Source: Gallionellaceae bacterium (GTDB lineage: Bacteria; Pseudomonadota; Gammaproteobacteria; Burkholderiales; Thiobacillaceae). Taken from it: DNA of 64,000 nt. Position 1 is the first letter of the stretch, and the number at the start of each line of letters is the position of its first letter. The stretch spans positions 124,001 to 188,000 of the forward strand of contig JAQTLN010000001.1 of the NCBI GenBank assembly GCA_028714875.1, in the 5' to 3' direction. Of this stretch, positions 1,792-63,700 are shown one piece after another. The notes under the pieces are model-generated. The model was not told where the DNA came from. It did not search any database and saw nothing but the letters and a program-made list of their open reading frames with translations. Both the position numbers and the translations under genes were made by a program.

Positions 1792-1808
1792 TTCAGGCTC
1801 CATAAAAT

Positions 1809-2738
1809 TCATGCTTGTAATCCCTTGGGCAACGGGAAATTGACGTTTTCCTCGACGCCCGCCAGGGGCGTGAGCGTGCTGGCGCCGAGTTCACGCAGGC
1901 GCTGGATGACGCCTTCCACCAGGACTTCCGGGGCCGATGCGCCGGCGGTGACACCGACATGCCGCTTCCCCTCCAGCCACTCCGGCCGCAACTGACCGGC
2001 GTTATCCACCATATAAGCGGGCGTGCCGGCCTTGGCCGCGACTTCGCGCAGGCGGTTCGAGTTGGAACTGTTCGGTGAGCCGACCACGATGACCACGTCG
2101 CATTGCACGGTCAGCGTTTTTACCGCGTCCTGGCGGTTCTGGGTGGCGTAGCAGATGTCGTCCTTCTTGGGGCCGCGTATTTCCGGGAAGCGCGCCCGTA
2201 GCGCCACCACCACACGGCTGGCATCGTCCACCGACAACGTGGTCTGGGTGACATAGGCCAGTTTCGCGGGATCGGCCACGTTCAGACCGGCGACGTCTTC
2301 CGGGGTTTCCACCAGATGCATGCCGGCGTCAGACTGACCCATGGTGCCTTCCACTTCCGGGTGGCCCTTGTGACCGATCATGACGATCTCCAGGCCGGCT
2401 TCGCGCATCTTCTTCACTTCCACATGCACTTTGGTGACCAGCGGGCAGGTGGCGTCATAGACATTGAAACCGCGCGCCTCGGCCTCGCTCCGTACCGCGA
2501 GCGACACGCCGTGAGCGCTGTAGATCAGGGTGGCGCCGGCCGGCACGTCGGCCAGGTCTTCGATGAAGATCGCGCCCTTGGCCTTGAGGTCATCCACCAC
2601 GAATTTGTTGTGGACGACTTCATGTCGCACGTAAATGGGCGCGCCGTATTTTTCCAGGGCGCGTTCGACGATGGTGATGGCGCGGTCGACGCCGGCGCAG
2701 AAACCGCGCGGATTGGCCAGCAGGATGGTTTTAGGCAT
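1809..2738 (-). CDS. ispH: 4-hydroxy-3-methylbut-2-enyl diphosphate reductase
   Basis: Last enzyme of the MEP isoprenoid pathway; it converts HMBPP to IPP and DMAPP using a [4Fe-4S] cluster. All three cluster cysteines are present: GFCAGV near residue 13, [11 protein letters not shown] near 98 and [10 protein letters not shown] near 200. The HKGHPE and SNSNRL motifs that bind the diphosphate are also visible. The length of 309 residues is normal. It starts two bases after the fkpB stop, the usual fkpB-ispH pairing in proteobacteria, so one transcript is expected. Confidence 0.97.
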
Positions 2739-2740
2739 GG

Positions 2741-3205
2741 TTATTTGGGTTCGATGGCGAGGATATGGACTTCGAAGTTGATCGGCAGCCCGGCCAGCGG
2801 GTGGTTGAAATCGACACGCACGCTGTCGGTGTCGATCTCCAGCACGGTGCCGGTTAGCGTCTGGCCGTTGGGCAGGCTGAAATCGACGTCGCTGTTCACG
2901 GCGAGTTCCATGTCGGCGCCGAGGTTGGCACCGAGGTTGGCATTGAAGTCGCCACGCGGCAGGTTATGGATCATGGCCGAATCATGCGAGCCGAACGCCT
3001 CGCCGGGCGCCAGATCGAATTGACGGTGGTCGCCGACACGCAGGCCGAGCAACAGGGTTTCCAGGCGCGGGTCGATTTCGCCGTGGCCGAGGGTAAAGGT
3101 CTCCGGCCCTTCGGTGAAAGTGTCGACCAGAATTTCGCCCTGGCAGGACAGGCGGTAATGCAAGGTGGCCTGGTCACCCAGGCGCAGCGGCGCGGAATTG
3201 GTCAT
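2741..3205 (-). CDS. fkpB: FKBP-type peptidyl-prolyl cis-trans isomerase, SlpA/FkpB type
   Basis: A 154-residue cytoplasmic isomerase with an inserted-flap FKBP fold. Recognisable blocks are [16 protein letters not shown] at the N-terminus, the LGLRVGD helix, the flap segment around FGSHDS, and the C-terminal VDFNHPLAG motif typical of SlpA/FkpB. It catalyses proline isomerisation and acts as a chaperone on folding polypeptides. It is the first gene of the fkpB-ispH-CNP1 cluster. No lspA is found upstream, although that is a frequent neighbour in other proteobacteria. Confidence 0.94.
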
Positions 3206-3347
3206 GGCGGTGGCAAGACAAGCGAACAGCGCGCGAGTTTACCGCTCACCAAGTCCTCAGTCCGAAATCCGCGGGCGCCATGCTCGAACGGTGATGCCGC
3301 GGAAGCGCTGCTCCGGCTCCTGGCCTCTAAGCAAAAGGCGCAGCCAA

Positions 3348-3377
3348 CAAAAAAAGGGCGCGATAAAAGCCGCACCC
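3348..3377 (-). terminator. intrinsic terminator downstream of the coiled-coil protein
   Basis: Read leftward, a 7-bp stem GGGTGCG/CGCGCCC with an 8-base loop is followed by seven T. It lies 28 bp beyond the stop of the leftward gene at 3405-3659. Confidence 0.75.
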
Positions 3378-3404
3378 GTTAGTGAATTATTGGATTACGG
3401 AGGG

Positions 3405-3659
3405 CTAGAAGAATTGCTTGGCGAAGTTGGCGATGGCGATGGCGAGGAGTACTCCCATCATCCATTTGAGCAGCGCGGTTTCGTGGTCAAGCTTGGCTTC
3501 GAGTCGCGCAATGTCAAGTTTTGTTGCAAGTGCCGTATCCAGAGCTTCAGCGAATACTTCTCTCTGAGCTTCCGCAAAGGCTTCAGCCTGCGCCTCGGTA
3601 AGCCCGGCCTGTTTCAGGCGGTTAGCGAACTTCAGTGTGTCAAATGTGATGGCTGACAT
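3405..3659 (-). CDS. small coiled-coil membrane-anchored protein (DUF1640-like)
   Basis: An 84-residue protein starting MSAITFDTLKFANRLKQAG. A central helix rich in Ala, Glu and Gln (TEAQAEAFAEAQ...) with heptad spacing leads into one C-terminal membrane segment (MMGVLLAIAIANF). This layout is that of DUF1640/CCDC90-like proteins, common in bacteria next to small genes and of unknown function. The start at 3659 is chosen because GGAG precedes that ATG (GGAGAGCATC ATG); the longer frame from 3698 has no such site. It has its own intrinsic terminator just downstream. Confidence 0.75.
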   Translation of the reverse strand: MSAITFDTLKFANRLKQAGLTEAQAEAFAEAQREVFAEALDTALATKLDIARLEAKLDHETALLKWMMGVLLAIAIANFAKQFF

Positions 3660-3696
3660 GATGCTCTCCAATATCGGAGCCGAGTGTAGCAAAAAC

Positions 3697-3727
3697 AAAA
3701 CGGGCGCGGCTTGCGCCGCGCCCGTTT
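3697..3727 (-). terminator. intrinsic terminator of the porin gene
   Basis: A 13-bp stem AAACGGGCGCGGC/GCCGCGCCCGTTT with a 4-base loop, followed leftward by a T-rich run. It lies 30 bp beyond the porin stop codon and upstream of the next leftward gene. Confidence 0.9.
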
Positions 3728-3757
3728 ACAGACTTCGGATCAGACGGTTAGGTCAGA

Positions 3758-4822
3758 TTAGAAGCTGGTGTTCACGCCCATGGTGAAGACCTTGACGTCC
3801 TTGGCGGTCGTGTAGTTGTCGCTGTTGTAAGCGGCATACACGTTGGTGCGCTTGGACAGGTTGTAGATCGCGCCCAGGGTCCAACGCTTCAGGTCGTCAT
3901 CCGAACCAGCAGCGGTCTTGCCCAGGATGCCGCCGGCGGCGCCGGTATAGGCTTGTTCGTTGTTGAACTGGCCATACTGAGCGGCCAGGGTGATGGGGCC
4001 CATGCCGTAGGTGACGGAAGCCAGATGCGCCTTGTCGGTCTTCTGAGCGGCGGTGAAACCGTCGTTGGAACGCTCGTAGGTGTAGCCCAGGCCGATGTCG
4101 CCGATTTTGTAGGCGATGTTGAACTTGGTGGCTTTCGCGTCATTGGTGCCGCCAGCAGCCAAGTCTTTCTTGAAGACTTCGTGGCCCAGGGTGGCTTTCA
4201 GGGGGCCATTGGCGTACACGCCGACCATGGAATAGGCATCGTTCAGGCCATTAGCATTGACCGTGCCGGTCTGCTCGCCAGGAACGGTGGCAACGGCGAA
4301 GTGGAAGCCAGACCATTCCGGAGATACATAAGCGACGGTACCGGCGGCGCGGTTGTCGAAGCCGTTACGGCCGATGATGCCGGTGCCGTTCTTCTGGGAG
4401 TCGGCGGAGGTGTCGGCGAACACGTCAGCGGAACCGCCCAGCTTGTAGGGGGTGTCATGACGGCCAATGATCACGGTACCGAAGCCGCCAGCCACGCCGA
4501 CAAAGGTATTGCGCAGGCCGGCGCCACCGAAGGCGGTATCACCAGCGCCGCCAACGGCGTTATCCAGAGGGCCAGTGGCGGAAGAGATTTGCTGTTCGAT
4601 TTGCCAAACAGCCTTCAGGCCGCCGCCGAGGTCTTCAGAACCCTTGATGCCGAAGCGGGAAGTCTGGTCGTTGACAGTCCACTTGTTGGCGTTGACGGCG
4701 TCGGAATTGACGTGATCCAGGGAATAACGCAGCGTGCCGTACACGTCAACGTTGGAGGAAGCAGCGAAAGCGGGAGCGGCAAAGGCGCCAGCAACAGCCA
4801 GAGCGATGAGAGACTTTTTCAT
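3758..4822 (-). CDS. Gram-negative general porin (betaproteobacterial trimeric type)
   Basis: A 354-residue outer-membrane beta-barrel. The signal peptide MKKSLIALAVAGAFAAPAFA ends in AFA. The mature protein begins SSNVDVYGTLRYSLDH, has the RFGIKGSEDLGGGLKAVWQIE block characteristic of Burkholderia/Neisseria-type porins, a constriction-loop region near GRHDTPYK, alternating barrel strands, and a terminal Phe (GVNTSF) as needed for BamA recognition. It would let small hydrophilic solutes diffuse across the outer membrane. Monocistronic, with a strong terminator; the long 5' region suggests regulation. Confidence 0.95.
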   Translation of the reverse strand: MKKSLIALAVAGAFAAPAFAASSNVDVYGTLRYSLDHVNSDAVNANKWTVNDQTSRFGIKGSEDLGGGLKAVWQIEQQISSATGPLDNAVGGAGDTAFGGAGLRNTFVGVAGGFGTVIIGRHDTPYKLGGSADVFADTSADSQKNGTGIIGRNGFDNRAAGTVAYVSPEWSGFHFAVATVPGEQTGTVNANGLNDAYSMVGVYANGPLKATLGHEVFKKDLAAGGTNDAKATKFNIAYKIGDIGLGYTYERSNDGFTAAQKTDKAHLASVTYGMGPITLAAQYGQFNNEQAYTGAAGGILGKTAAGSDDDLKRWTLGAIYNLSKRTNVYAAYNSDNYTTAKDVKVFTMGVNTSF

Positions 4823-5073
4823 GTGTGAAACTCCTATCAGGTTGGTGAAACGCTTCTGCCCTGCGCGGCGGCTTGGTTTCCCTTGCCTCCGCCCTCCTCA
4901 GCATTGAGAAGGGGGCCTTAAAAACCTCTCGCGCGAGAAGTTGGATCGCATTCTGCTCAACTCTTAATAGGAGGAGCAAATCCGGATTCACTATTCAAGT
5001 AATTTCTCAAGAGTGTTGTTGCGGGGCCGCAACAGGATGTTGCGTGTCGATGAAAAAAGTTGTGGAAGCCTGC

Positions 5074-5156
5074 GTAGGATGTGGTGAGCGATAGCGAACC
5101 GCATCAAATGGCGCGATCGTGGGCGATGCGGTTCGCTATCGCTCACCGCATCCTAC
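5074..5156. repeat. family A inverted repeat (REP-like)
   Basis: Two arms of about 32 bp, GTAGGATGTGGTGAGCGATA... and its reverse complement, around a short centre. A half copy follows at 5244-5276, and a diverged full copy sits between hoxF and hoxU at 13558-13625. Confidence 0.85.
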
Positions 5157-5243
5157 GGGCTACGCAGCTATGAGCTTGCGCGGTCGATGGGAGATGTTCT
5201 TAATTGAAGTGGCTGCGGGCTGGGTGCATGGCGCGGCCGTGGG

Positions 5244-5276
5244 TGATGCGGTTCGCTATCGCTCACCGCATCCTAC
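5244..5276. repeat. family A repeat, single arm
   Basis: One arm (GATGCGGTTCGCTATCGCTC... to CATCCTAC) identical to the right arm of the 5074-5156 copy, without a partner. Confidence 0.75.
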
Positions 5277-5288
5277 TTGCTGATTGGC

Positions 5289-5666
5289 TCATGCCGCACG
5301 CCTCTCCGGCAGGTGTACATCCAGGACGATTTCGGCGTAGGGCGCGTGAACTCGCCCCTGTGCATCCTTCTCTACCGCCATCCAGGCGCTCAGTTTGTCC
5401 ACGTCGTTATGGACATTCTTGTAATCGCGACCAACCTGCCGCGCCAGTTCCGCGATGCTCATGGGGCCGCCCGCGCGCAACGCCGCCAGTAACTCCCAAC
5501 GCCTTGGGGTAAACACCGCCAGCATCTGGCCCATGTCGCTGAAGCCAACGGCGAAATAAGGGGCTGGCTCTTCACCGCGCTCCAGCTTTTCCATGACGCG
5601 GGCGGCACGGTCCAGGGTGGATTGAATGCCTTCCCCCACTTTTACATTGAGAATGTGCTCATGCAT
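5289..5666 (-). CDS. HTH DNA-binding protein, HVO_A0114/MarR-like antitoxin of a TumE-type pair
   Basis: A 125-residue winged-helix protein. The helix-turn-helix lies in the second half (RRWELLAALRAGGPMSIAELARQVGRDYKNVHNDV). This protein family usually lies next to TumE (DUF6516) toxins and acts as antitoxin and autorepressor. Its ATG overlaps by a few bases the end of the truncated toxin gene just upstream, which keeps the expected toxin-antitoxin order. Since the toxin is broken at its 5' end, this is probably an orphan antitoxin surviving as a regulator. Confidence 0.75.
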   Translation of the reverse strand: MHEHILNVKVGEGIQSTLDRAARVMEKLERGEEPAPYFAVGFSDMGQMLAVFTPRRWELLAALRAGGPMSIAELARQVGRDYKNVHNDVDKLSAWMAVEKDAQGRVHAPYAEIVLDVHLPERRAA

Positions 5667-5865
5667 CGCTTAGTTCCTTGATGTCATTCATGAAGTCGGC
5701 CATCAGGCGGGCCGGGCTGGTGAAGGGATAGGGGAATTCCAGCTTGCCCAAATGCTTGTGGTCGCCCTTGCCGCGTTCGTTGTCATAGCCGAGAACCCGC
5801 TCGCCATTTACCACATAGACCAGACGGTATTTGTAGGGGTGTTCGATCAGGCTTCGTCGCCACGA
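5659..5865 (-). pseudogene. TumE-family (DUF6516) toxin, 5'-truncated remnant
   Basis: Read leftward, this frame encodes [30 protein letters not shown] and [15 protein letters not shown], the conserved C-terminal two thirds of TumE/DUF6516 toxins. The N-terminal part normally containing the DGxxxExxxW block is absent: a TGA closes the frame just upstream and no start codon fits. The fragment ends with a TGA that overlaps the start of the HTH partner. I infer loss of about 35 N-terminal residues by deletion, leaving a non-functional toxin. Confidence 0.7.
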
Positions 5866-5946
5866 TCATTCGCTTGCAATTCCGGATTCCGGCTCCATCT
5901 GCCGCGCTATCGCTCCACGTCGGGGCGTTTTTTTCAAGGAGATGTC

Positions 5947-6273
5947 GTGAGTTTGATCATTGAAGACCTGAGCGTGGGTGAGGGTGCCGAGGCGGTTGCC
6001 GGCAAGCAGGTGACCGTGCATTACACCGGCTGGCTGACCAATGGCGGCAAGTTCGATTCCAGCCTGGATCGCGGCGAGCCGTTCGATTTTTCGCTCGGAC
6101 GCGGCCAAGTGATTCGTGGTTGGGATGAGGGCGTGGCGGGGATGAAGGTGGGCGGCAAGCGCAAGCTGACGATTCCGCCGGAAATGGGTTACGGCGCGCG
6201 CGGCGCCGGTGGCGTGATTCCGCCGAATGCCACACTGGTGTTCGATGTGGAGTTGCTGGCCGTCAACGGCTAA
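5947..6273 (+). CDS. FKBP-type peptidyl-prolyl cis-trans isomerase
   Basis: A compact 108-residue single-domain FKBP without signal peptide. The full set of FKBP active-site blocks is present: [54 protein letters not shown] and [14 protein letters not shown]. The GTG at 5947 is preceded by AAGGAG at proper distance and matches the usual N-terminus of the family; a longer open frame from 5752 overlaps the toxin remnant and is not credible. It catalyses proline isomerisation in the cytoplasm. A family B repeat follows its stop. Confidence 0.92.
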
Positions 6274-6304
6274 GCGTTCCGTCTAAATTCCGTGGCAGCC
6301 TTGC

Positions 6305-6407
6305 GTAGGTCAGGTTGGCGCGCGGCGACTACCTGACGATTGCTCCGTCAAACTAGAAGTTGAGGGTGTGGATCGTCAGGTAGCGATGGAGCCGCAACCT
6401 GACCTAC
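6305..6407. repeat. family B intergenic inverted repeat
   Basis: Begins GTAGGTCAGGTTGGCGCGC and ends GCAACCTGACCTAC, with internal ACTACCTGACGAT / ATCGTCAGGTAGC pairing. It lies between the FKBP gene and pap, which converge on it. Other copies, in the opposite orientation, are at 28952-29053 and 36859-36959. Confidence 0.85.
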
Positions 6408-6421
6408 GGGGGCTACCCGGC

Positions 6422-7921
6422 CTACTTCTTGCCCTTCACCCGCTCCAACCCCGCTTCGATGCTGTCGCACAGGGTTTTCAATATCTGGATGCGGGCGTGG
6501 TATTTGTTGTTGGCGGGCACCAGGGTCCAGGGCGCGATTTCCGTGCTGGTGCGGTCGACCATGTCGCAAACGGCCTGTTCGTAGTCATCCCAGCGCTCGC
6601 GGTTGCGCCAGTCCTCGTCGGTGATCTTGTAGTGCTTGAAGCCGGTCTTTTCGCGTTCCTTGAAACGCTTGAGTTGTTCCTCGGCGCTGATCGATAGCCA
6701 GAATTTCACGACCACGATGTGGTGGTGGGCGAGTTGCGCCTCGAATTCGTTGATTTCGTTGTAGGCGCGCAGCCAGTCGTATTCCGAGCAGTAGCCTTCC
6801 ACCCTTTCCACCAGCACGCGGCCGTACCAGGAGCGGTCGAAGATCGCCAGGCGGCCGCGCCGGGGGATGTGGCGCCAGAAGCGCCAGAGATAGGGTTGCG
6901 CTTTCTCTTCGTCGGTCGGCGCGGCGATGGGAATGATCTTGTACATGCGCGCGTCGAGGGAGCCGGTGATGCGGCGGATGCTGCCGCCCTTGCCGGCCGC
7001 GTCGTTGCCTTCGAATACCGCGACGATGGAGAGCTTCTGGAAGCGCGGGTCGCGGGTGAGGACGTTGAGGCGGCCTTGATAGGTTTCCAGCTTTTTCGCG
7101 TAATCCGCCTTGTCCAGCGTCTGGCTCAGGTTCAGGGATTTCAGGATGTCCAGATTGTCCACCTGCGGCAGGCTGGGCAGGGCGGGGATGGAGTGTGTCT
7201 TGCCGTGTTCGGAGGACAGGCGCAGGCGCATGGCTTCCAGCACGATCTTGCCCAGCATCAGGCTGCGATAGCGTTCGTCGCTGCCTTCGATGATGTACCA
7301 GGGCGCTTGCGCGGTACTGGTCAGGCGCAGGGCTTCGGCGCTGGTCTTGCGAAATTTGTTGTAGAGGCCGAAATGATGCCAATCGCGTTTGGTGACCCGC
7401 CAGCGCGTGCGCGGGTCTTTTTCCAGCGCCTTGAGCCGGCTGGCTTGAAAGGGTTTGGACAGGTGGAACCAGAACTTGAGGATGAGCGCGCCTTCGTCGC
7501 TGAGCATCTTCTCGAAGCGGACATTGCGTTCCATGGCTTCTTCCAGATCGACATTGCGGATGTCGCCGTAGACCCGGTTGAGGATGGGCATGCTGTACCA
7601 GGAGCCCTGGAAGATGCCGATCTTGCCGCGTGGCGGCAGGGCGCGCCAGAAACGCCACATCGGGGGGCGGTCGAGTTCCTCGTCGGAGGGTTCTCCCATG
7701 CCGTGGGTTTCGATGTGGCGCGGGTCCAGCCATTCATTGAGCAGGTGCACCGACTCGCGGCGACCGCCGCCGTCGACGCCGCTGATGATGACGATGACCT
7801 GGAATCCGTTGCTTTGGACCAGTTCGTCCTGAGCAAGCAGTAGCGCCTCGCGCAGGGCGGGCAGTTCCTTTTCATAGGTAGCCTTGTCGACCTTGTGGCC
7901 GATTTCCGCGGATTCGAACAT
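6422..7921 (-). CDS. pap: polyphosphate:AMP phosphotransferase (two-domain PPK2)
   Basis: A 499-residue tandem PPK2 protein that phosphorylates AMP to ADP with polyphosphate. The C-terminal domain has the working P-loop GNDAAGKGG and Walker B-like FDRSWYGRVLVERVEG. The N-terminal domain keeps the fold but has degenerate counterparts (SGVDGGGRRES, FQGSWYSMPIL), which is the usual pattern for class II PPK2 (PAP) enzymes. The enzyme connects polyphosphate stores with the adenylate pool. It is monocistronic, and its 3' end abuts a family B repeat. Confidence 0.93.
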   Translation of the reverse strand: MFESAEIGHKVDKATYEKELPALREALLLAQDELVQSNGFQVIVIISGVDGGGRRESVHLLNEWLDPRHIETHGMGEPSDEELDRPPMWRFWRALPPRGKIGIFQGSWYSMPILNRVYGDIRNVDLEEAMERNVRFEKMLSDEGALILKFWFHLSKPFQASRLKALEKDPRTRWRVTKRDWHHFGLYNKFRKTSAEALRLTSTAQAPWYIIEGSDERYRSLMLGKIVLEAMRLRLSSEHGKTHSIPALPSLPQVDNLDILKSLNLSQTLDKADYAKKLETYQGRLNVLTRDPRFQKLSIVAVFEGNDAAGKGGSIRRITGSLDARMYKIIPIAAPTDEEKAQPYLWRFWRHIPRRGRLAIFDRSWYGRVLVERVEGYCSEYDWLRAYNEINEFEAQLAHHHIVVVKFWLSISAEEQLKRFKEREKTGFKHYKITDEDWRNRERWDDYEQAVCDMVDRTSTEIAPWTLVPANNKYHARIQILKTLCDSIEAGLERVKGKK

Positions 7922-8065
7922 GGTCTTGATCCTTGATGAGCCGCTTGCGCAATGGCGCTATAACGGCCGCGACGGAGGAGACTTTAGCTTTGGCTCTTGG
8001 ATTGTGTTGGTTGTTGAAATGGTTGCGGTCTTTCTGGTAGCCAGACGCTTGCGCTATGGGGGGAT

Positions 8066-8124
8066 GTAGCGCGGGCGTCCCGCCCGCGGGTTTGGGGCAA
8101 ATGCAGGCGAGACGCCCGCGCTAC
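8066..8124. repeat. family D-like inverted repeat overlapping a stop codon
   Basis: Arms GTAGCGCGGGCGTC and GACGCCCGCGCTAC face each other around a GC-rich centre. The right arm overlaps the 3' end of the leftward diguanylate cyclase gene, so the TAG stop of that gene (8121-8123) is part of the repeat. Confidence 0.8.
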
Positions 8125-10127
8125 AGGGGCTGCTTTTCGGTGATTTCCATTTCCACCCGGTTGCGGCCGCTGTGTTTCGCCCGGTAGAGCGCGTGGTCGG
8201 CGCGCGCGAGGATGGTGTCGGCATTGCTGTCGCCACGGGCGAACAGGGCGACACCGATACTGACGCTGTAGCGGACCATGCCGGTGGCGGTTTCGACCGG
8301 GGTGTCGTCGATCATCTGGCGCAGGCGTTCCGCCAATTCGCGCGCGCCTTCGCCATTGGTATCGGGCAGCAGGATGGCGAACTCCTCGCCGCCCAGGCGG
8401 CCGAGGTGGTCGCTGCGCCGCAGGATATGTCGCGCGCTGGCGGTAAACGCCTTGAGGACCGCATCGCCCGCGGCATGGCCGAATTCATCGTTGACCAGTT
8501 TGAAATGGTCGAGATCGAGCATGAGCAGCGCGGCGGCTTCGCCGTAGCGTTGGTGGCGCGCCAGTTCCTGTTCCAGTTGCTGCAGGAAGTGGCGGCGGTT
8601 GTGCGCGCCGGTGAGCGAGTCGGTGGTGGCCAGGAGACGCAACTGCCTGGCATGGGCCTGGCGCTCGGAGATGTCCTGAAATACCACCACCGCCCCCACG
8701 CGGGCGCCGTTCTTCAGTACCGGGGTGACCGTGAGGGCAACCGGAAAGCCGCCGCCATCCTGGCGCCAGAACCATTCCTCTTCTTCGTGCCGTGGGCGGC
8801 CGTCGGCCAGCGTCAGCGCGATGGGGCAGTCGGCGTGCGGATAGTCGCGGCCATCGGCATGGTGGTGATGGAAGAGAAGGTGCTGGTCGCGTCCCAGGAC
8901 GTCCTGACCGTTGATGCCGAGCATGCGCAGCGCGGCAGGGTTGATGAAGGTCGCATGGCCTTTCAGATCAACTCCATAGACGCCTTCGCCCAGGCCCATG
9001 AGCAATAACTGGAAGCGCGCTTCGCTCTCGTTCAGCGCGACCGCTTTCTGTTCCACCTGGAGTTTCCAGCGGCGCTGCGTGTCGCGCAGCAGCCAGAGCA
9101 GCAACATCTGGGCAATGCCATAGCCGAGCAGGGCTTCACCGGCCAACGCTTCCTGCGCCTGGTGGTGGCGTTGCACCAGGCTGCCCACATCGCGCCAGAT
9201 CAATACCGAGCCGACCGCCGCCCGTTTGGCGTCGAGCACGCCGAGATAGTCGCGCAAGGGAATCCGGGAGATATGCAGGACGCTGTCCCCGTAGTGCATC
9301 AGCCAGGAAATGGGTTGGTCATGATAGGCGTGGAGGGGCAGCCCCCCCAGCCAATCCTTGAGTTCCGGGCGGGAACTGGCCTCCAGATAGCAATCGCAGC
9401 CGTTCTTCTGGCGCAGTCCCGCGCGGTATTCCCGCCAGACCGAGGATTCCACGTGTTCGGGCTTGAGCAGGACGGCGAAGCCGGCGCCCAGTTGCCGGTC
9501 GAGCAGGCCGAGCTGCGCGGTGAAGGCGGTGCCGGCTTCGAGAGAGCCGATGTAGCGGGTGGTGCCGTCGGCGGCGCTGATTTCGACCGGCACCACGCCG
9601 CGAACACCGGATTGCACACGTCCGGTTTCAAATCCGGCGCGCGGCTGGCGGTCGCGATTGGTGTCTTCGATGATGTGGCGCAGACCATCCATGCGGTCGC
9701 CATATCGCTCCGGCGCATGCACGCGCAGAAAGGAGAGCACGCCCGGGCCGAGATGGAATTGCAGTTGCCGCACGCCGAAGCGGGTCTGCATGTAGTGCCA
9801 CTGTGGTTCCACACGGGCGAGCAAGGCGGCGCGCGCGCGCGCCGCGCGTTCGCCGCCGGCGCCGCCACCTTCGGCCAGCACGGCGGCCCGGCCCTGGTCG
9901 AACAATTGCTGCACTTCGGGGTCCGCCGCCAGCAGGCTGGCAAGCGCGACCATCTTTTGCTCCAGGTTGCCTATGGCGACAGCAAACGCGGTTTGCAACC
10001 GGCCGGCATCCTGGTCTAGCTGAATCTGGAGTTCATGCTCGCGATCGCGCCATACCAGCGTGGTGATGGCCGCGAAAACGAGGAGTAACAGGCCGCTGGC
10101 GAACCAGGTAAGAAGACGAAAGTGCAT
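8121..10127 (-). CDS. membrane sensor diguanylate cyclase (dCache_3 - PAS - GGDEF)
   Basis: A 668-residue inner-membrane protein. Membrane helix at residues 5-27; a large periplasmic double-Cache region with SFLRVHAPERYGD and RGVVPVEIS blocks, typical of dCache_3 sensors; a second hydrophobic segment (LLGYGIAQMLLLWLL); a PAS domain near residues 370-490 (LLLMGLGEGVYGVDLKG...); and a C-terminal GGDEF domain with an intact GGEEF active site (GRLGGEEFAILLPDT). It should make cyclic-di-GMP in response to a periplasmic ligand. An RxxD-type inhibitory site is not obvious. The gene stands alone. Confidence 0.93.
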   Translation of the reverse strand: MHFRLLTWFASGLLLLVFAAITTLVWRDREHELQIQLDQDAGRLQTAFAVAIGNLEQKMVALASLLAADPEVQQLFDQGRAAVLAEGGGAGGERAARARAALLARVEPQWHYMQTRFGVRQLQFHLGPGVLSFLRVHAPERYGDRMDGLRHIIEDTNRDRQPRAGFETGRVQSGVRGVVPVEISAADGTTRYIGSLEAGTAFTAQLGLLDRQLGAGFAVLLKPEHVESSVWREYRAGLRQKNGCDCYLEASSRPELKDWLGGLPLHAYHDQPISWLMHYGDSVLHISRIPLRDYLGVLDAKRAAVGSVLIWRDVGSLVQRHHQAQEALAGEALLGYGIAQMLLLWLLRDTQRRWKLQVEQKAVALNESEARFQLLLMGLGEGVYGVDLKGHATFINPAALRMLGINGQDVLGRDQHLLFHHHHADGRDYPHADCPIALTLADGRPRHEEEEWFWRQDGGGFPVALTVTPVLKNGARVGAVVVFQDISERQAHARQLRLLATTDSLTGAHNRRHFLQQLEQELARHQRYGEAAALLMLDLDHFKLVNDEFGHAAGDAVLKAFTASARHILRRSDHLGRLGGEEFAILLPDTNGEGARELAERLRQMIDDTPVETATGMVRYSVSIGVALFARGDSNADTILARADHALYRAKHSGRNRVEMEITEKQPL

Positions 10128-10234
10128 GGCGCATTTTGAACCAGGGCGCGCTTTGTTTCATCAGGGGATTGCGCCGGGCTGCCGATTTTTTCAAAGGTGC
10201 TTTTCGCGTTAGCCTCTGATGCGGTTGGTGCGGT

Positions 10235-10339
10235 GGTTCCCCCCTTTTTCAAAGGGGGAATGAAGGGGATTTAGCGACGTTTGCCTGTGCGGCCGTCTCA
10301 GAAATCCCCCCTAACCCCCCTTTGAAAAAGGGGGGAACC
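10235..10339. repeat. family C intergenic element
   Basis: Near-complete copy with perfect-looking GGTTCCCCCCTTT.../...AAAGGGGGGAACC ends and the TTTAGCGACGTTTGCCTG core. It lies between the diguanylate cyclase and msrB. Confidence 0.8.
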
Positions 10340-10461
10340 ACCGAACCAAGCGCATCACCCGTTAACGGGAAAAGAGCCTTGGGAAAGGTGGAGGCGACTT
10401 TGCATCAGCGGCTAGCCTATGGCGCCGGCACGGGTTGTTGGGCCCATTCACTTTGCCCGAT

Positions 10462-10905
10462 CTACCTTGTGTCAGCGGGCTCGAACACCAGCGACAGTGA
10501 ATTCAGGCAGTAGCGTTGTCCGGTAGGCAGAGGTCCGTCGTCGAAGACGTGGCCGAGATGGCCGTCGCAGCGGGCGCAGCGGATTTCGGCGCGGATCATG
10601 CCGTGGCTGGTATCGCGGATCGCGCGGATGTGCGCGGGATCGTAGGGCTGGGTGAAACTGGGCCAACCGGTGCCGGATTCGAACTTGGCTTCGGCGCGAA
10701 ACAGCGGCAGTCCGCACAGGCGGCAGTGATAAACCCCCGCGTCCTTGTTCTTCAGCAAGCCGCCGCAGAACGGGGGTTCGGTGCCCTGGTGGAGCAGGAC
10801 CCGGCGTTCTTCCTCGGAGAGGCTCGCGGCAAGCTTGGCTTTTTCCTCGGCGTCGAGCGGGGTCAGGTCGTAGCCGGAGGCGGAATGGCGGGTATCGTTG
10901 TTCAT
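10462..10905 (-). CDS. msrB: peptide-methionine (R)-S-oxide reductase
   Basis: A 147-residue MsrB that repairs the R form of methionine sulfoxide in proteins. Zinc ligands appear as CRLCG and CARCDGH; the catalytic block is [11 protein letters not shown], with the resolving-type motif [10 protein letters not shown] upstream and HVFDDGP between them. The start at 10905 follows AGGAG; the longer frame to 11067 overlaps the neighbouring methyltransferase and is rejected. It lies 13 bp after that gene, so the two are probably co-transcribed. Confidence 0.95.
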
Positions 10906-10918
10906 CAGGCACTCCTGT

Positions 10919-11533
10919 TCAGTGCTTGCGCGCGACCATGAGAAACACCGGGTAGGCGCGGGTTCCCGTTTCCTGTTCCTTGACGATTTCGAACACCGTG
11001 TCGAAGCGAACGTCGCCATAGCCGGCGGCCTCGGCCTGTTGCCGCAAAGTTTCTCGGGTGAAGCCATGGTGCACGTCGACTTCGATGCCGTGGAAGGAAC
11101 CGTCCTCCTGGTCGAGGTCGGCCACGCAGAGCCAGCCGCCGGGGTTCAACAGGGCATGGAAGGTGGCGAGGATGTCGGCGGTGTCCGGGATGTGGTGCAA
11201 CACCATCGAGCTGAAGATCAGGTCGTAACGTTCTTCAGGGAGTGGCGCGTCGGTCAGGTCGGCCTGGCGCGCGGTCATGTTGCTCACGCCCAGCGCGGTG
11301 ATCTTTTCGCGCAGCACTTCCAGCATGCCGGCGGAACTGTCCTTGAGGGTGATATGGCCCAGCGCGTCTTTCAGCGGAAAGCTCAACATGCCGGTGCCGC
11401 AGCCGTAATCGAGCGCGCGCATGTTCGTGTTCAAGGGAATGGCCGCCTGTATCGCGGCGGCGATCTTGTCGGCGCGGTCCTGAAATACCGGGTTGCCGTC
11501 CCAGAGGCGTGCTTTGCTGTCGAAGTCGATCAT
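10919..11533 (-). CDS. class I SAM-dependent methyltransferase
   Basis: A 204-residue Rossmann-fold methyltransferase. Motif I is [12 protein letters not shown] (SAM binding), followed by a motif with acidic residue KDSSAGML, motif [16 protein letters not shown] and motif [16 protein letters not shown]. The substrate is not predictable; the group includes UbiE-like and small-molecule methyltransferases. It precedes msrB in the same direction with a 13-bp gap. No signal peptide is present, so it is cytoplasmic. Confidence 0.85.
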
Positions 11534-11640
11534 GGCGTGCGGAATGAGAGGTCTTGGGGCGGCCGATTATCGGCCCGTCGCGGCTTCATGTAACCCGCCG
11601 GCCATCGGAATGCGCTAGGCTGCACGCCTTGGCCGTGTAG

Positions 11641-11664
11641 GTCGGGTTAGCGAAATGACCCGAC
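11641..11664. repeat. hairpin in the hoxF leader
   Basis: GTCGGGT and ACCCGAC flank a 10-base loop, ending 19 bp before the hoxF start. The sequence resembles another common intergenic palindrome type (GTAGGTCGGGTTAGCGAA). Whether it affects hoxF expression is unknown. Confidence 0.55.
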
Positions 11665-11683
11665 GCCCACTTACGGAGAGACC

Positions 11684-13543
11684 ATGACTCACGAATTGCA
11701 ATCCATCCTGGCGCGCCACCAGTTCGCACCGACGCAGCTCCTGCAAGTCTTGCGCGAAGTTCAGGAGCACTACTCCTGGATCGCCCCGGAAGCCCTGGAT
11801 TATGTGGCCGATGGCCTCGGCCTGCCGCGCGCGCGCGTGGAAGGCGTGGCGGGGTTTTACAGCTTCCTCCACAGCGATGCGCCGTGCCGCTATCGCCTGC
11901 TGTTCTCCGACAACATTACCGACCGCATGCTGGGCAACCAGGAGCTGATCGCCTACTTGTGCAACAAGTTGTGGGTTGAACGCGGCCATATTTCCGAAGA
12001 CGGCCTGGTCAGCGTGGATACCACCTCTTGCACCGGCCTGTGCGATCAAGGTCCGGCGCTACTGGTCAACGGCTGGGCGATTCCGCGTCTCACCCACGAA
12101 CGCCTCGACCAGATTACCGAATTGATCCTGGGGAAGACGCCGGTCGAACAATGGCCGCGCGAGCTGTTCGTGATTGAAAACAACATCCACCGCGCCGACA
12201 TCCTGCTGGACAACCCGATGGAGCCGGGGGATGCCTTGCGCGGGGTCATTTCACGCGGCGGCGGCCTGGAAGCCGCCGCCAATGCCCGTTCCTGGCGCGA
12301 GGGCATCCCCGCCGCCGAACAAGGGCAGCTCGCCATCCTGGACGAGATCAAGAAATCCAACTTGCGTGGCCGTGGCGGCGCCGGTTTCACCACCGGACTG
12401 AAGTGGGAGGCTTGCCGCAACGCCTCCGGAGATCACGCAAAGGAGCAACGTTATGTGGTGTGCAACGCCGACGAAGGCGAGCCCGGCACCTTCAAGGACC
12501 GCGTGCTGCTCACCACCCAGGCCGATCTGCTGTTCGAGGGCATGACGGTTTGCGCTTATGCCATCGGCGCGACCCGGGGGTTTCTCTACCTGCGCGGCGA
12601 ATACCGTTATCTGCTGGAGCCGCTGAACGAAACTTTGGCGCGGCGACGCGCGGCGCGCTTGCTGGGCCGCGACATCCTGGAACATGGCGGCTTCGACTTC
12701 GACATCGAAATCCACCTCGGCGCCGGCGCTTATGTCTGCGGCGAGGAATCGGCGTTGATCGAATCCCTGGAGGGCAAGCGCGGCATTCCGCGCAATCGGC
12801 CGCCTTATCCGGTCACCCACGGCTACCTGCAACAACCGACCACGGTGAACAACGTCGAGACCTTCTGCGCCGCCGCCCTGATCGCGGCCGGTGGAGACGA
12901 GTGGTACCGAAGCGTCGGCACGGCGAAATCGGCCGGTAGCAAGGTGTTGTCGGTGTCCGGCGATTGCGCCCGCCCCGGCATTTACGAATACCCCTTCGGC
13001 GTGACGGTGCGTCAGGTGCTGGAAGACTGTGGGGCGGAGAACACCCTGGCGGTGCAGATCAGCGGCCCCTCCGGCGTGTGCATCGCCGCCGACGAGTTCG
13101 ACCGCCGCATCGCCTTCGAGGATCTGGCCACCGCCGGCGCTTTCATGGTGTTCGACGCTTCCCGCGACATGTTCGAGGTGGCGCGCAATTTCGCCCACTT
13201 CTTCGCCCATGAGAGCTGCGGTTTCTGTACCCCGTGCCGGGTCGGTACCGCTATGTTGAGCACCACGATGGACAAGATCGCGAATGGCCACGGCACCCTG
13301 TACGACCTGGCCGAGATCGAGAAACTCGACCGCGTGCTCAACCAGTCCGCCCACTGTGGCCTCGGCCACACCGCCTGCAATCCCACCCTGGATACGCTGA
13401 AGCGCTTCCGCCCCACTTACGAACGGCGCCTGAAGTCACAGGATTTCGAGCCCGCCTTCGATCTCGACGGCGCCCTCGCCGCCGCCCGCCGCATGACCGG
13501 CCGCGATGACGCCGGGGCGCATCTGAGCACGGAGGAGGCATGA
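11684..13543 (+). CDS. hoxF: NAD-reducing [NiFe] hydrogenase, diaphorase subunit HoxF
   Basis: A 619-residue NuoE-NuoF fusion that passes hydrogenase electrons to NAD+. The N-terminal 160 residues form a thioredoxin-like [2Fe-2S] domain (VDTTSCTGLCDQGP). The NuoF part carries the NADH/FMN-binding motifs GRGGAGFTTGLKW and NADEGEPGTFKDR, GAGAYVCGEESALIESLEG, and [4Fe-4S] cysteines in ESCGFCTPCRVGT plus the downstream CGLGHTAC. Length is similar to known HoxF proteins. It begins a hoxF-hoxU-hoxY cluster; a family A repeat separates it from hoxU. The catalytic large subunit, hoxH, is 31 kb away. Confidence 0.96.
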   Translation: MTHELQSILARHQFAPTQLLQVLREVQEHYSWIAPEALDYVADGLGLPRARVEGVAGFYSFLHSDAPCRYRLLFSDNITDRMLGNQELIAYLCNKLWVERGHISEDGLVSVDTTSCTGLCDQGPALLVNGWAIPRLTHERLDQITELILGKTPVEQWPRELFVIENNIHRADILLDNPMEPGDALRGVISRGGGLEAAANARSWREGIPAAEQGQLAILDEIKKSNLRGRGGAGFTTGLKWEACRNASGDHAKEQRYVVCNADEGEPGTFKDRVLLTTQADLLFEGMTVCAYAIGATRGFLYLRGEYRYLLEPLNETLARRRAARLLGRDILEHGGFDFDIEIHLGAGAYVCGEESALIESLEGKRGIPRNRPPYPVTHGYLQQPTTVNNVETFCAAALIAAGGDEWYRSVGTAKSAGSKVLSVSGDCARPGIYEYPFGVTVRQVLEDCGAENTLAVQISGPSGVCIAADEFDRRIAFEDLATAGAFMVFDASRDMFEVARNFAHFFAHESCGFCTPCRVGTAMLSTTMDKIANGHGTLYDLAEIEKLDRVLNQSAHCGLGHTACNPTLDTLKRFRPTYERRLKSQDFEPAFDLDGALAAARRMTGRDDAGAHLSTEEA

Positions 13544-53033: not shown

Positions 53034-53126
53034 GGAGACGTGGCCGAGTGGTCGAAGGCACACCCCTGCTAAGGGTGCATCTGGGCAAAACCTGGATCCA
53101 GGGTTCGAATCCCTGCGTCTCCGCCA
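53034..53126 (+). tRNA. tRNA-Ser (anticodon GCU)
   Basis: Acceptor stem GGAGACG/CGTCTCC, a D arm with GGCCGAGTGGTCGAAGGC, anticodon loop CTGCTAA giving anticodon GCT at 53068-53070, a long variable arm (GCATCTGGGCAAAACCTGGAT region) as in class II tRNAs, and a T arm GGGTTCGAATCCC. CCA is encoded (53124-53126). It reads AGC/AGU serine codons. The prophage begins immediately downstream, so its 3' end is the likely integration site. Confidence 0.96.
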
Positions 53127-59198: not shown

Positions 59199-60704
59199 AT
59201 GATCAACCCAGCACAGCCCACCAACGCCGCCAAATTCCTGGCAAAACGCGACAGCCTCGCCCCATACCTGGAGCGCGTCGCGCCACGGACACTGCAATCC
59301 CTGGTCCGTGCTGGCGACCTCGACGGCGCCAAGAGATACAGCGATTTCATTGACTCGCCTGAAGGGCGGAACCACACCAGCGCATGGGCCACGGCGATGG
59401 ACCGCACCGCGGCGGGCGACTTCGACGGTGCAATCCCTGTGCTGGCCGGCCTGTACGGGCCGCACGCAAAGGCCACGCGCTTGGGCGATGGGCAATGGCG
59501 CCTCGACTTCCACGACGCCGACGGCCAGGTGACGACATCCCGCTCGTTGCCCGCCCAGGAACTCGCAACCAACGCGGTGGCCGAGTTGGCGCCACATCGC
59601 ATCACCAAGGAGAACACCACCATGACCCGAACCGATACCAATGCCGGGTTCCTTGCGAACCGCAGGACCAACGTACAGCAACCACCTACCCCGGCGCCCG
59701 CACCTGGCATCACCCCGGTAGTTCCAGGCCAGGCGCAAGCACTCGATCCCGCCGCCCCCATCGCCAACCCGGCCACGGCAGGCCAGGCGGAATTCCTGCG
59801 CCAGCAAGGCGTGACCCAGGACAAGGTGGTTAACCACGGCGCCGGCGTAAGCCAAAGTGCCGCGCAGGTCATCGAGCGGCAAGGCAAGTACGGCGGCGGC
59901 AATGGCCTGTCCTACCAACTGTCCGGCCTGGGCGACCAGAACAGCATGTACGCCAGCGCGTCGAAGCCGGGCGGCAAGCTCGACACCTTCACCGGCGCCG
60001 GCACGGGCAAGGCATCCAGCCCCGGCAGTTTCTCCGGCAACGTGGTCCCGGCAGCGGCAATCAGTACACCGGACTTCAGTGTTACTGACGCCCTGCGCCA
60101 ATCCCTCAACGCCGCCGCCGACCGGGGCGACTGGAAAGCCATTCAGCAGCACTACGCCAACAAGGGCGAGACGTTCAACGGCAAGGCGCCGCCGCTTCCG
60201 TACAGCGCTGGGGTGATGAAGGCACTCAGCAGCATCGAGTCCGACCGCGCGGTGACAGCGAATAACGCGGCAACCATCGCCGAAACCAAGCGCCACAACT
60301 TAGCGACAGAACAAGTGCGTGGCACGAAGGATGCCTCCCCTGCCCAGGTGCTCACTGCGGAATGGCTGGTGAGCAACGGCGTGGCAAAGGACGCGGCGGC
60401 AGCCTGGGAACTGGTAGGAACCTCCAAGGAGAAGTCTCGGGAATCGGCAATCCAGGACCTGGCGGGAAAGCTGATGGCCAACCTGTCGTACCAGCGCGAC
60501 CCCGCGAAGGCGACCACGGACGCCACCACCATGGTGGATGCAATCCGCGCCAAGCCAGCCCAGTCCGCGAAGGCGACGAATACCCCGCGTGCCCGTTTCG
60601 ATGCTGACCCGGCAATGTCCGGGTATCGATTCGGCGAACCGACTGGTGCGCAGGGCTGGAAGGTCTACGACGCATCCGGCGCCCACGTGGGCTTTTACCG
60701 CTGA
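59199..60704 (+). CDS. prophage protein of unknown function, likely virion-associated
   Basis: A 501-residue protein (ATG 59199; an upstream GTG at 59193 is possible). N-terminal 130 residues look globular (LAPYLERVAPRTLQSLVRAGDL, YSDFIDSPEGRNHT), the middle is Pro/Ala/Gly-rich linker (about residues 150-290), and the end contains YRFGEPTGAQGWKVYDASG. No enzyme motif is recognised. It precedes the polyvalent protein by 5 bp, in the same transcription unit, consistent with an internal virion or injection protein; inference only. Confidence 0.55.
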   Translation: MINPAQPTNAAKFLAKRDSLAPYLERVAPRTLQSLVRAGDLDGAKRYSDFIDSPEGRNHTSAWATAMDRTAAGDFDGAIPVLAGLYGPHAKATRLGDGQWRLDFHDADGQVTTSRSLPAQELATNAVAELAPHRITKENTTMTRTDTNAGFLANRRTNVQQPPTPAPAPGITPVVPGQAQALDPAAPIANPATAGQAEFLRQQGVTQDKVVNHGAGVSQSAAQVIERQGKYGGGNGLSYQLSGLGDQNSMYASASKPGGKLDTFTGAGTGKASSPGSFSGNVVPAAAISTPDFSVTDALRQSLNAAADRGDWKAIQQHYANKGETFNGKAPPLPYSAGVMKALSSIESDRAVTANNAATIAETKRHNLATEQVRGTKDASPAQVLTAEWLVSNGVAKDAAAAWELVGTSKEKSRESAIQDLAGKLMANLSYQRDPAKATTDATTMVDAIRAKPAQSAKATNTPRARFDADPAMSGYRFGEPTGAQGWKVYDASGAHVGFYR

Positions 60705-60709
60705 CCGCC

Positions 60710-63700
60710 ATGCCATTCACCCCCCTCGAATCCAGTAAGCGCCAGGTACAGGGCTTCGTGCCGCTGGAACCAGATCAACCCGAAAACGGCGCCGTGAAGA
60801 CCCTGCGCGCCATCGGCCAGGTCTACCCAGTTGCAGAAACCGCCGCCAACCTGGTGACCCAGGCCGTGGCCCTGCCCGTGGCCGGCGTTGCCAGCCTGGG
60901 TGCCATGGCGACCAATGCACTCGGCATCACCGATGCGGACCCCGCCGCCGTGGTCCATGACGTGGCCGGCGCTCTGACGTACCAGCCCCACACAGACCTG
61001 GGGCAACACCTGACCGGCGCGGCGATGTACCCCTTCGCCAAGCTCCAGGAAGCGGGCCGGGCGGCGGGGAATGCCACCCTGGACCTGACCGGCTCGCCGG
61101 TGGCGGCGACCGCAGTTGATACCGCAATCCAGGCGTCTCCCATGGCCGTGGCGCCGGCTGCCAAGGCGATCAAGGGACGGGTGAAGAAGCCGGTGCCAGT
61201 TGAAGAAGGCACCAAGGCACCCCCTGATGTGGTTGAAGGCGTGCCTGGCTACGACGTGACTTTCATCCCAGACCAGCACATGGAGGTGGTCAATGCCAAG
61301 ACAGCCAACCCTGTACAAGCGGGAGCGCAACGCCTGGCGGGTGATGAAACGCCGCTGCCTGGAACCACGGTTCAAGGATTTTCACCGGTACGGCGGGGCG
61401 GGGATCTCGATCAGCCCGCGGTGGCTGGACTTCAGCCACTTCCTGGCGGACCTGGGGCCGGCGCCGACGCAAGCGCACTGGCTGGGGCGCCTGGACGTAC
61501 TGGGCAACTACGAACTGGGGAACTGCCGCTGGACGACGCAACCAGAGCAGGAACGCCGCCGGGTGTACTGCCGGCGAGTGGCCTTGCGCGGGCAGACCGT
61601 GACGGCGGCGGAAGCGGGGCGATTGCCCGGCCAGCCGACGCGGAACTCAGTGCTGCGCCGGCAGGCGAGCGGCTTGCCCTTGGAGAATCCGCCGGCCGCG
61701 AAGTTGTACCGGGCATCGCTTTGGCTGACGCACCAGGGCGAGACCCTGCCGCTGCCGGAATGGGCACGGCGGATCGGCTTGCCGAACAGCGTCCTATGGG
61801 CGCGGATCAAGCGCGGTTGGTCGATGGAGAAGGCATAGATGCCGGGACGATTCAACCGCTGGGGCGTCTATTCGGGCGCCGCGCCGACACCTACACCGAC
61901 GCTGAACTGAGCCGGTTCGCCACCGAGTACGAATCGCGGACCATCCGCGCCGATATTGCCGCAGAACAAGTGCGCCGCAGTGCCGTGGTTCTCCGGGAGG
62001 ACTTCCGCGCCACTGCCGACGAACTCGCCGGGACCAAGGGCGCCCGTTTCGAGCACCTGGCGGAAACGCCGGAATCCCTGGAACTCGCCCAGTTCCTGGC
62101 GGACAACGCCGACCGGTCGGAACGCATCGCTGAACTCGGCCAACGCATCCAGGAGGAAGTGCACCGTGAACAAACAACCCCCAGTACCAGGACAGCAGTA
62201 CCCGGCGACCAGTTCGCTATTGGCGAAGGTAAACGGCAATCCGGCCCTGCGCCGCGCCATCAAGAGGGCGATCAAGGCCATGAAGCCGCCAAGCTGAACA
62301 TGGCCCCTGGCATCAACTACGTGCCCTTCATCAACGATGCCAGCCTCCCCGCCAGCAAGGCCGCCACGGTGGCCGATCTGCCGACACCGATGCGCAGGGA
62401 ACACATCATCACCAGCTTCGCCAAGGCCATCGGCGCCCACGTCTACGAGGGCCGCATCAAGGGCGGCAAGATCCTCGGCTTCTTCCGGCCCAGGAATGAG
62501 GAAGTCCGAATCAAGCGCGCCAACGACATCGAGACCACCTCGCACGAACTGGCCCACATGATCGACAGACGCGTCCCGGCCATCTCCAACGCCTGGCGCA
62601 CCGACAAGGCCCTGCGCACCGCTCTGGAATCCGTCAGCTACAACCGCAGCAGCGTGAAGGAGGGGTTCGCAGAAGGCGTGCGGTTGTGGATGACCCAACC
62701 TGACGCCCTGGAAACCAAGGCGCCGATGGTGAAGGTGTGGCTCGACGGCTTCGTCGGCAGCAACAAGGAATATGGCCCCGCCATGAAGCAGGCCCAGGCA
62801 GATATGGTGGCGTGGTTCAACCAGGATGCCCTGCAACGCGCCCGCTCCAAGATCGGCAGCGACACCCCATGGAGCGAAGCATTGGACGGTGTGTGGGACA
62901 AGTTCCGGCAAGCCACCGTTGACGACCTGCACGGCGTCTATCGCATGGAGCGGGAATTGACCGGTGGCATTGGTCCCCGCGGCCCCTACGAATCCGCGCG
63001 CCTGTCCCGTGCTTCGGCCTCGATTGCCGATGGCGCAGTCCGCTACGGTGCCCCCAGGGTGAAGCCCGATGGTTCATTCGAGTTCACCGGCAAGGGACTG
63101 GAACAAGCCCTGGCGCCTGTCGCCGAGCGACTGGACGATGCCTTGCTCTACTTCGTCGGCAAGAGCGCCAACGAGTTGATGCAGCAGGGCCGGGAACACC
63201 TGTTCACCCAGGCCGAAGTCGACGCCATGCTGAAGCTCAAGACCCCCGAGCGCGAGCAGGCATTCCGCGACTACCAGGACTGGAACAAGGGTGTGCTGGA
63301 CTTCGCCGAATACCACGGCGTGCTGAATCCCGCGACCCGGAAGCTCTGGCAGCGGGCGCAGTACCTGCCCTTCCAGCGGGTGGGCCAGCCGGGCGCCTAC
63401 AAGGCCAAGCCTGGGGACTGGTCCGGCATCAAGGCCCTGACCGGCGGCACCGAGAACATCCGCGAGGTGTTGCCCAACATGATCGGCAACGCCGCCCAGT
63501 TGATCGATCTGGCGGTGAAGAACGACGCCCGCAACCGCATCGCGGCCCTGGCCGAGAACCGCAAGGGTGGCCGCTTCATGGTCAAGATTCCCGCCGAATC
63601 CCGGCCAGTGACGATCAGCAAGGACGCGATCATCGACGGCATCCTGAAGGCGATGGGCCTCTCCCGTCGAGATCCCCGTGCGCAGGCCATCATCGCCGAC

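Follow-up and report, generated by a model that had tools for sequence, protein, structure and literature searches.

The locus considered here raises the question of how two long open reading frames (ORFs) can occupy the same bases of a phage gene, that is, whether a gene for an HNH-family protein really lies out of frame within a larger coding gene, which of the two frames is under constraint, and how such an arrangement might arise and persist. The stretch of DNA analyzed, hereafter the window, comprises 64,000 nucleotides of a contig from a Gallionellaceae bacterium (JAQTLN010000001.1).

Nested HNH gene and host polyvalent gene

The larger frame, on the forward strand, opens at position 60710 and is free of stops to the end of the window at position 64000 (1097 amino acids); in the contig it extends to window position 65389, and the full ORF, of 1559 amino acids, corresponds to L003:4710-9389. 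Its product matches phrog_9854 (E 2.4e-14) and, in a part that falls beyond the window (amino acids 1267 to 1441), the LPD38 domain (PF18857; E 6e-47, 160.6 bits against a curated cut-off of 27), which identifies the host as a large polyvalent protein. Both the uninterrupted frame from 60710 to the window end and the polyvalent nature of the host, as asserted in a preliminary description of this DNA, are thus borne out.

The smaller frame, at 61293 to 61838 on the same strand and +1 relative to that of the host, encodes 181 amino acids. Its translation contains both GISISPRW and GNYELGNCRW, and the search against PHROGs gave an HNH endonuclease family, phrog_3377, as the best match (E 5.3e-34), followed by three more HNH families, one restriction-endonuclease family and one weak match to a family of unknown function; the Pfam search gave no match at E up to 1. 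The codon bias follows the nested frame, since the GC content at the three codon positions is 0.65/0.55/0.86 in this frame and 0.86/0.66/0.55 in the host frame over the same bases (the rest of the host ORF shows 0.67/0.46/0.81). The preliminary description was therefore right in recognizing an HNH-like protein in a frame other than that of the host, with codons biased toward GC at the third position; its remark that the length of 546 bp is a multiple of three has no value as evidence, because this is true of any ORF. Together with the phase kept across loci and the purifying selection reported below, these results confirm that the nested HNH gene within the polyvalent ORF is real. Relatives of the nested protein at E 1e-5 occur in 697 of 50,697 annotated phage records, labelled mostly as hypothetical protein or HNH endonuclease among the 40 matches listed. 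The nested ORF ends with a TAG codon (61836 to 61838) about six residues before the end of the family model, and the window's protein is therefore C-terminally shorter than most of its relatives.

Upstream of the nested gene, the host protein presents an N-terminal helical domain (NT; amino acids 30 to 158, positions 60797 to 61183), delimited by HMM matches, alignment and helices predicted by AF2. Downstream, the conserved host core, recognized from the alignment of hosts and HMM matches, starts at 62303 and runs past the end of the window. An HELAH motif read in the core sequence (62543 to 62557), whose H, E and H are conserved in the core alignment, appears zincin-like, given its similarity to the HEXXH peptidases found in polyvalent proteins (PMC5512222); the Pfam search of the host gave no peptidase match. 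In the accessible part of that source, zincin-like peptidases are proposed to process polyvalent proteins, on which basis the linkers would be tolerant places; the same part makes no mention of an overlapping gene in large polyvalent proteins, and the term 'overlapping' is absent from the text, whereas the window's host has such a gene.

The AF2 model of the host, built for 730 amino acids from an alignment of 13 rows, has a mean pLDDT of 49. The host residues lying over the HNH gene (195 to 376) fall within a stretch of pLDDT under 50 (145 to 397), flanked by the helical NT domain and by a better modelled region that includes HELAH. Since the host alignment is shallow and the model poor overall, this pattern only suggests that the linker over the HNH gene is disordered.

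The host module that follows the nested gene (61839 to 62303) varies, with ddrB-ParB in L004, InPase in L014 and neither matched in the window, and the hidden HNH gene adjoins this module-swap point. A short motif, FxP[LI] (often GFTPLE or GFVPLE), recurs along the N terminus and the linker of the host. The NT domain is also found, with neither an LPD38-type core nor HNH, in L141 to L155, where many of the ORFs have 500 to 700 codons.

Conservation of the overlap across host loci

Further loci were sought in viral contigs and in 399 order-level and 369 class-level genomes; one scan covered the best 80 of 566 loci and a later scan the best 80 of at least 591, so that the share of hidden genes is not to be read as a survey. 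The first two relatives, L006 of the same genus and L004 of a Propionivibrio MAG, both carry the HNH gene in phase +1 inside a homologous ORF. Overall, at least 12 distinct HNH-bearing host loci were identified (L003, which is the window, L004, L006, L008, L010, L011, L013, L014, L020, L032, L034 and L035), after merging of duplicates (L007 with L010; L031 with L008; L048 with L011; L037, L049, L019 and L121 with L013; L039 and L052 with L014; L122 with L020; L043 with L032; L066 with L034; and, among the intein cases described below, L158 with L079) and exclusion of the incomplete L012/L036, L038 and L040. Phase +1 and a host frame open through the HNH gene occur in 12/12 distinct loci, the identity of the other 11 nested proteins to that of the window ranging from 77% to 27%. 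A recent private insertion in the window's genome is ruled out, as the overlap is old and shared by related loci.

The NT domain is common to the 12 HNH-bearing hosts and to two HNH-free hosts. NT and core occur together in 14 distinct ORFs, of which 12 carry HNH and two lack it, namely, L140 and L131, the latter counted once with its look-alike L132 (equal ORF length and NT score, ORFs not identical). In these HNH-free hosts, the region from NT to core is also a single ORF. In L033 and in the distant hosts L123 to L126, the core is present and both NT and HNH are absent. Annotated phages matching the host protein (28 records), whose alignments start only at query residue 495, were not counted among the HNH-free hosts. 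From a reading of the alignments, the linkers of the empty hosts show no clear similarity to those of the filled ones. On the core tree, the presence of HNH requires at least two changes without three cut-short rows and five if these rows count as lacking HNH, counts that would fit gain and loss of the gene alike. The earlier reading that the HNH gene was inserted without breaking the host ORF finds support in the widespread phage family to which it belongs, in the unbroken ORF and in the existence of homologous hosts free of HNH.

Selection in the two frames

Six loci, designated clade A (L003, L004, L006, L008, L010 and L032; 15 pairs), were compared at the nucleotide level, and identity by nested codon position is highest at position 2 (0.69 to 0.87) and lowest at position 3 (0.45 to 0.68). 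The ratios dNN/dSN and dNN/dNS were calculated with our own script in the manner of OLGenie (uncalibrated on known overlaps), and in clade A they amount to 0.34 (95% CI, 0.26 to 0.42) for the nested frame (dNN/dSN) and 1.26 (95% CI, 1.04 to 1.56) for the host frame (dNN/dNS); ratios based on doubly synonymous sites had too few sites for use. In two more groups, of one pair each, the nested ratios are 0.45 (0.26 to 0.70) and 0.45 (0.28 to 0.71), and the host ratios are 0.96 (0.66 to 1.43) and 1.30 (0.91 to 1.96). Thus, given the clade A values for the two frames, the HNH protein is constrained, whereas no constraint is detectable on the overlying host residues.

The preliminary description had named conservation of the same segment, in frame, among homologues of the host as an argument against an insertion. 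At face value such conservation is present, host-frame identity being 0.32 to 0.56 over the 15 clade A pairs; on analysis, however, it seems to follow from the nested frame, because nested position 2, which corresponds to host position 3, is the most conserved in 15/15 pairs and because clade A shows no host dNN/dNS below 1.

For stop codons, the expectation was obtained by shuffling synonymous codons within each nested ORF. Across the 12 loci, the host frame shows 0 stops against 30.5 expected (sum over loci), and the third frame over the 12 nested loci contains 3 to 11 stops each. With the addition of L079 and L096, two hidden relatives described below, the count is 0 against 43.2 expected; the nested label of the 12 loci and of L079 comes from flanking homology, and the stop case of L096 is partly circular, since its label rests on openness (0/2000 shuffles open). 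The control consisted of 63 distinct HNH relatives not covered by any long overlapping ORF; in these, 521 stops were counted against 548 expected, and 0/63 were open with 0.3 expected, a result that is partly by construction, as the open L079 and L096 had been placed in the nested set. As the loci have a common ancestry, their individual probabilities cannot be multiplied into a P value. Stops are kept out of the host frame, and the signal lies in the locus set; in the window alone, an open host frame is nothing unusual (P 0.34).

The latter value would agree with a chance open frame in GC-rich DNA, as would the case of phage Pacc40 (see below), in which no stops are expected at all. Nevertheless, the HNH homology, the phase conserved in 12/12 loci, the purifying selection on the nested frame and the 30.5 stops expected and never observed over the 12 loci reduce the probability of a chance overlap to a negligible level. 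It is also conceivable that the host consists of two genes, with the N-terminal part ending and the core restarting after the HNH gene, so that the intervening open frame would go unused. Such a division would agree with the lack of constraint on the host residues over HNH and with the variation of the downstream modules between hosts, but we consider it very unlikely, as all 12 loci keep the frame open and in phase against about 30 stops expected and the HNH-free hosts are likewise one ORF throughout. With sequence constraint in one frame and the mere absence of stops in the other, the overlap offers a clean natural case for overlapping-gene studies.

Probable expression of the nested gene

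A Shine-Dalgarno (SD) match, GGAGGT, lies within host codons at 61282 to 61287 on the forward strand, 5 nt before the nested ATG. An SD match of at least 5 nt located 5 to 9 nt before the nested ATG was found in 10/12 loci (absent in L004 and L011), against 3/110 control ATGs (Fisher p 1.3e-10), the controls being +1-frame ATGs in the cores of 7 of the 12 hosts; in loci with more than one possible start, we took the start supported by alignment to homologues. Internal initiation of the nested gene thus appears likely from the sequence of these sites, and we infer that both proteins would be made. In L008, L013 and L035, the SD site lies in host codons directly after the FxP[LI] linker motif.

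On these grounds, we consider it rather probable that a mobile HNH-type gene resides inside the polyvalent gene without splicing, with dual coding across the linker, and is exchanged between hosts. The HNH gene would occupy the probably disordered linker between the NT helical domain and the host core, and its product would come from ribosomes initiating internally on the host mRNA, at the SD site within the host codons just upstream. Ribosomes in the host frame would read the HNH bases one phase off, producing about 180 filler residues, and it is likely that the linker tolerates this HNH-frame filler. Selection would then keep the sequence of the HNH protein, and the host frame would only be required to be stop-free, with the HNH gene swapped between hosts at the linker independently of both flanks, through either endonuclease-driven homing or recombination.

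Phage introns and inteins often harbour HNH genes, and in L079 and L175 relatives of the nested gene do lie within inteins, so that removal of the segment as an RNA intron or a protein intein has to be weighed. However, no Rfam match was obtained over 60500 to 62600 at E up to 1, and no Intein_splicing match at E up to 0.1 in the hosts P0001, P0003 and L014, although the same search detected this domain in L079. Furthermore, selection against host-frame stops would be needless for an intron, and we regard splicing as extremely unlikely.

Probable exchange of the HNH gene between hosts

In the HNH tree, the six clade A proteins fall on one side with a support of 100/100, whereas a grouping of the same six loci is rejected by the trees of both flanks (p-AU 1.6e-4 for NT and 1.2e-5 for the core), the group having been picked for these tests after the trees were seen. 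The HNH tree conflicts with both flanks, which indicates that HNH would have moved between hosts. Moreover, L008 and L034 share 85% identity in the core, 62% in NT and 34% in HNH. Such discordance in identity and trees points to replacement of HNH at the same place, by homing or recombination; exchange at this site is likely from the sequence comparisons, and the tree conflict could be ordinary module recombination.

In an HNH tree of 142 rows, the 12 nested proteins and the free-standing L044 and L045 form one clade (SH-aLRT 95). L044 and L045 are placed within the nested proteins in this clade, which would imply two nestings or one nesting and one escape. It is possible that the two free-standing genes represent an escape from, or the source of, the nested gene. 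Each of them (L044:5932-6525 and L045:4177-4767) lies upstream of a giant ORF of more than 1600 codons. On the same tree the nested label requires at least seven changes, three of them forced by well supported branches; L175_6594, a second HNH of the L175 contig, was erroneously scored as nested here and pairs with the true L175 row.

Predicted structure and signature residues

The AF2 model of the nested protein (mean pLDDT 89, pTM 0.62) presents a beta-beta-alpha unit followed by two strand-strand-helix-helix repeats. The predicted beta-beta-alpha unit, which bears the HNH-family signature according to the family columns, spans amino acids 62 to 89 (61476 to 61559), and the two repeats span amino acids 95 to 125 (61575 to 61667) and 144 to 173 (61722 to 61811), all on the forward strand; from the model, the first repeat is likely DNA binding. 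The Foldseek comparison of the model with the PDB gave 13 weak rows, none significant (best E 1.6), among which are the I-TevI DNA-binding domain (E 2.2) and PacI (E 4.2), and the sequence search for solved relatives gave none for one alignment and two chance-like rows for another.

Of the features of an HNH homing endonuclease, family homology and the predicted beta-beta-alpha fold are found in the nested protein, whereas the signature residues are not intact. The column before the conserved Arg holds Asp/Glu in 122/128 other rows and Gly (11) or Ala (1) in the LPD38-nested members; the Asn column holds Asn in 125/128 other family rows and Arg (7), His (4) or Asn (1) in the 12 LPD38-nested rows. 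The five hidden HNHs in other hosts, described below, retain [DE]R. From family relationship we infer that the nested HNH could cleave DNA and home, but for the window's protein both activities are doubtful because two family-conserved residues are changed, and the LPD38-nested lineage may be cleavage-dead and domesticated.

The nested protein could thus be a domesticated HNH descendant, acting from the same transcript as a DNA-binding regulator or an extra effector to the benefit of the phage and without homing. The replacement of Asp/Glu by Gly/Ala in 12/12 and of Asn by Arg/His in 11/12 LPD38-nested rows points in this direction, as do the purifying selection on the nested frame and the DNA-binding-like repeats predicted by AF2. 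However, the free-standing sisters L044 and L045 share both residue changes, which are therefore not caused by nesting as such, and the conflict of the HNH genealogy with both flanks suits mobility. Furthermore, in other families the Asn that ends the HNH motif can be replaced by His, and no structural template was found to assign the catalytic columns. We therefore regard domestication as possible but rather unlikely, and a mobile gene exchanged between hosts remains the preferred reading.

Hidden relatives in other hosts

Homologues of the HNH gene at other insertion sites, a check proposed in the preliminary description, were found in five further hosts. In two of these, the gene lies in phase +1 inside inteins of phage DNA polymerase A genes (PF14890), with 0 host-frame stops against 5.7 expected in L079 (HNH at 5971-6438 inside 4068-7343) and 0 against 8.4 in L175 (4983-5411 inside 1298-6355). 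In L096 (5971-6438 inside 2718-12386), it lies, again in phase +1, within a 3223-codon ORF with ddrB-ParB; here the third-position GC content is 0.50, and the host frame shows 0 stops against 6.9 expected and the other frame 25. The remaining two, also in phase +1, are embedded in a DarB-like/LPD3 polyvalent ORF (L214; 5004-5450 inside 1730-10411) and in a 1278-codon ORF that gave no Pfam or PHROG match (L231; 4977-5408 inside 2756-6589); for these, 2.4 and 2.9 host-frame stops, respectively, are expected (P 0.03 each), and their HNH proteins pair in the tree. A 5-nt SD match precedes the candidate start in L175 and L214 and is absent in L079, L096 and L231. In the scan of the best 80 of at least 591 loci, five embedded HNHs were counted among 87 distinct matches, a number that includes Pacc40, fetched on purpose, and a repeat of L079.

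The chances seem to us evenly balanced that alternate-frame nesting is a recurrent lifestyle of this HNH family, adopted in separate lineages in the linkers of polyvalent proteins and in the intein linker. If it is, the family would have, in addition to introns, in-frame intein domains and intergenic sites, a fourth niche in such nesting, taken up mainly in phase +1, in which stops are least frequent, with host stops purged and host residues left free. The host codons would carry the ribosome site, and the element would move among coding genes without splicing. The intein cases (L079 and L175) and L096, with its 50% third-position GC content, make the idea testable outside GC-rich DNA.

Relationship to known systems

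The usual view is that a selfish endonuclease gene requires an intron, an intein or a position between genes; in the present case, persistence within a coding gene would be achieved by dual coding. In phage Aeh1, mobE is an endonuclease gene placed in a phage coding gene, nrdA, without intron or intein, and the host gene is split in two, whereas the window's host stays one open frame. In inteins and fractured genes, the endonuclease gene is sheltered within a host gene; no splicing element was found in the window's host, and in L079 and L175 the HNH lies out of frame inside the intein. Free-standing phage HNHs (phrog_3377 and relatives) are homologous at the protein level, but 63/77 distinct matches lie outside long overlapping ORFs and, unlike the nested loci, show stops in the host-type frame at the expected rate.

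PMC11855218 (2025) describes the ShiLan domain and the Pacc40 insertion as HNH endonucleases concealed in another frame of phage methylase genes, where the host frame has no stops and neither an intron nor an intein was found, and PMC9957025 reports transfer of the ShiLan domain between divergent methylases. ShiLan and the window are alike in the out-of-frame HNH, the stop-free host ORF, the lack of a detectable intron or intein (PMC11855218), the occurrence of hosts with and without HNH and a phylogeny in conflict with the host (PMC11855218; PMC9957025). They differ in the host, a mycobacteriophage DNA methylase with the HNH in the third frame for ShiLan and a polyvalent protein with the HNH at +1 for the window, and in the ribosome-binding site, which was not found by the ShiLan authors (PMC11855218) and which has an SD counterpart in 10/12 LPD38-nested loci. 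HNH models of the present family gave no match in the ShiLan region. Pacc40 gp60 (PMC11855218; FJ174692), instead, belongs to the present family by profile models, with a match at L156:6049-6339 inside a long host ORF; its host is a helicase-methylase and its phase +2, compared to the polyvalent host and +1 of the window, and its open host frame says little, because no stops are expected there by chance. All features of the ShiLan/Pacc40 kind, from the out-of-frame HNH, the stop-free host and the lack of intron or intein to HNH-free hosts and evidence of between-host movement, are thus found for the window, and, since ShiLan and Pacc40 are described in PMC11855218, this kind of arrangement has already been published.

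What is new here is the polyvalent host, the long conservation, the split selection, the ribosome sites and the relatives hidden in DNA-polymerase inteins. In the open-licence literature, to which our search was directed (most subscription papers being outside its scope), we found neither a polyvalent protein nor an intein reported to contain a gene of this kind. A further implication is that a seemingly disordered insertion in a large phage protein can be the shadow of a hidden gene overlooked by annotation.

Genomic context

The source genome of the window contains one HNH of the phrog_3377-type family and one LPD38-type host core. A tRNA-Ser gene at 53034 to 53126 is separated by about 600 bases from the first phage-like ORFs, which begin at 53738, and may mark the edge of the prophage.
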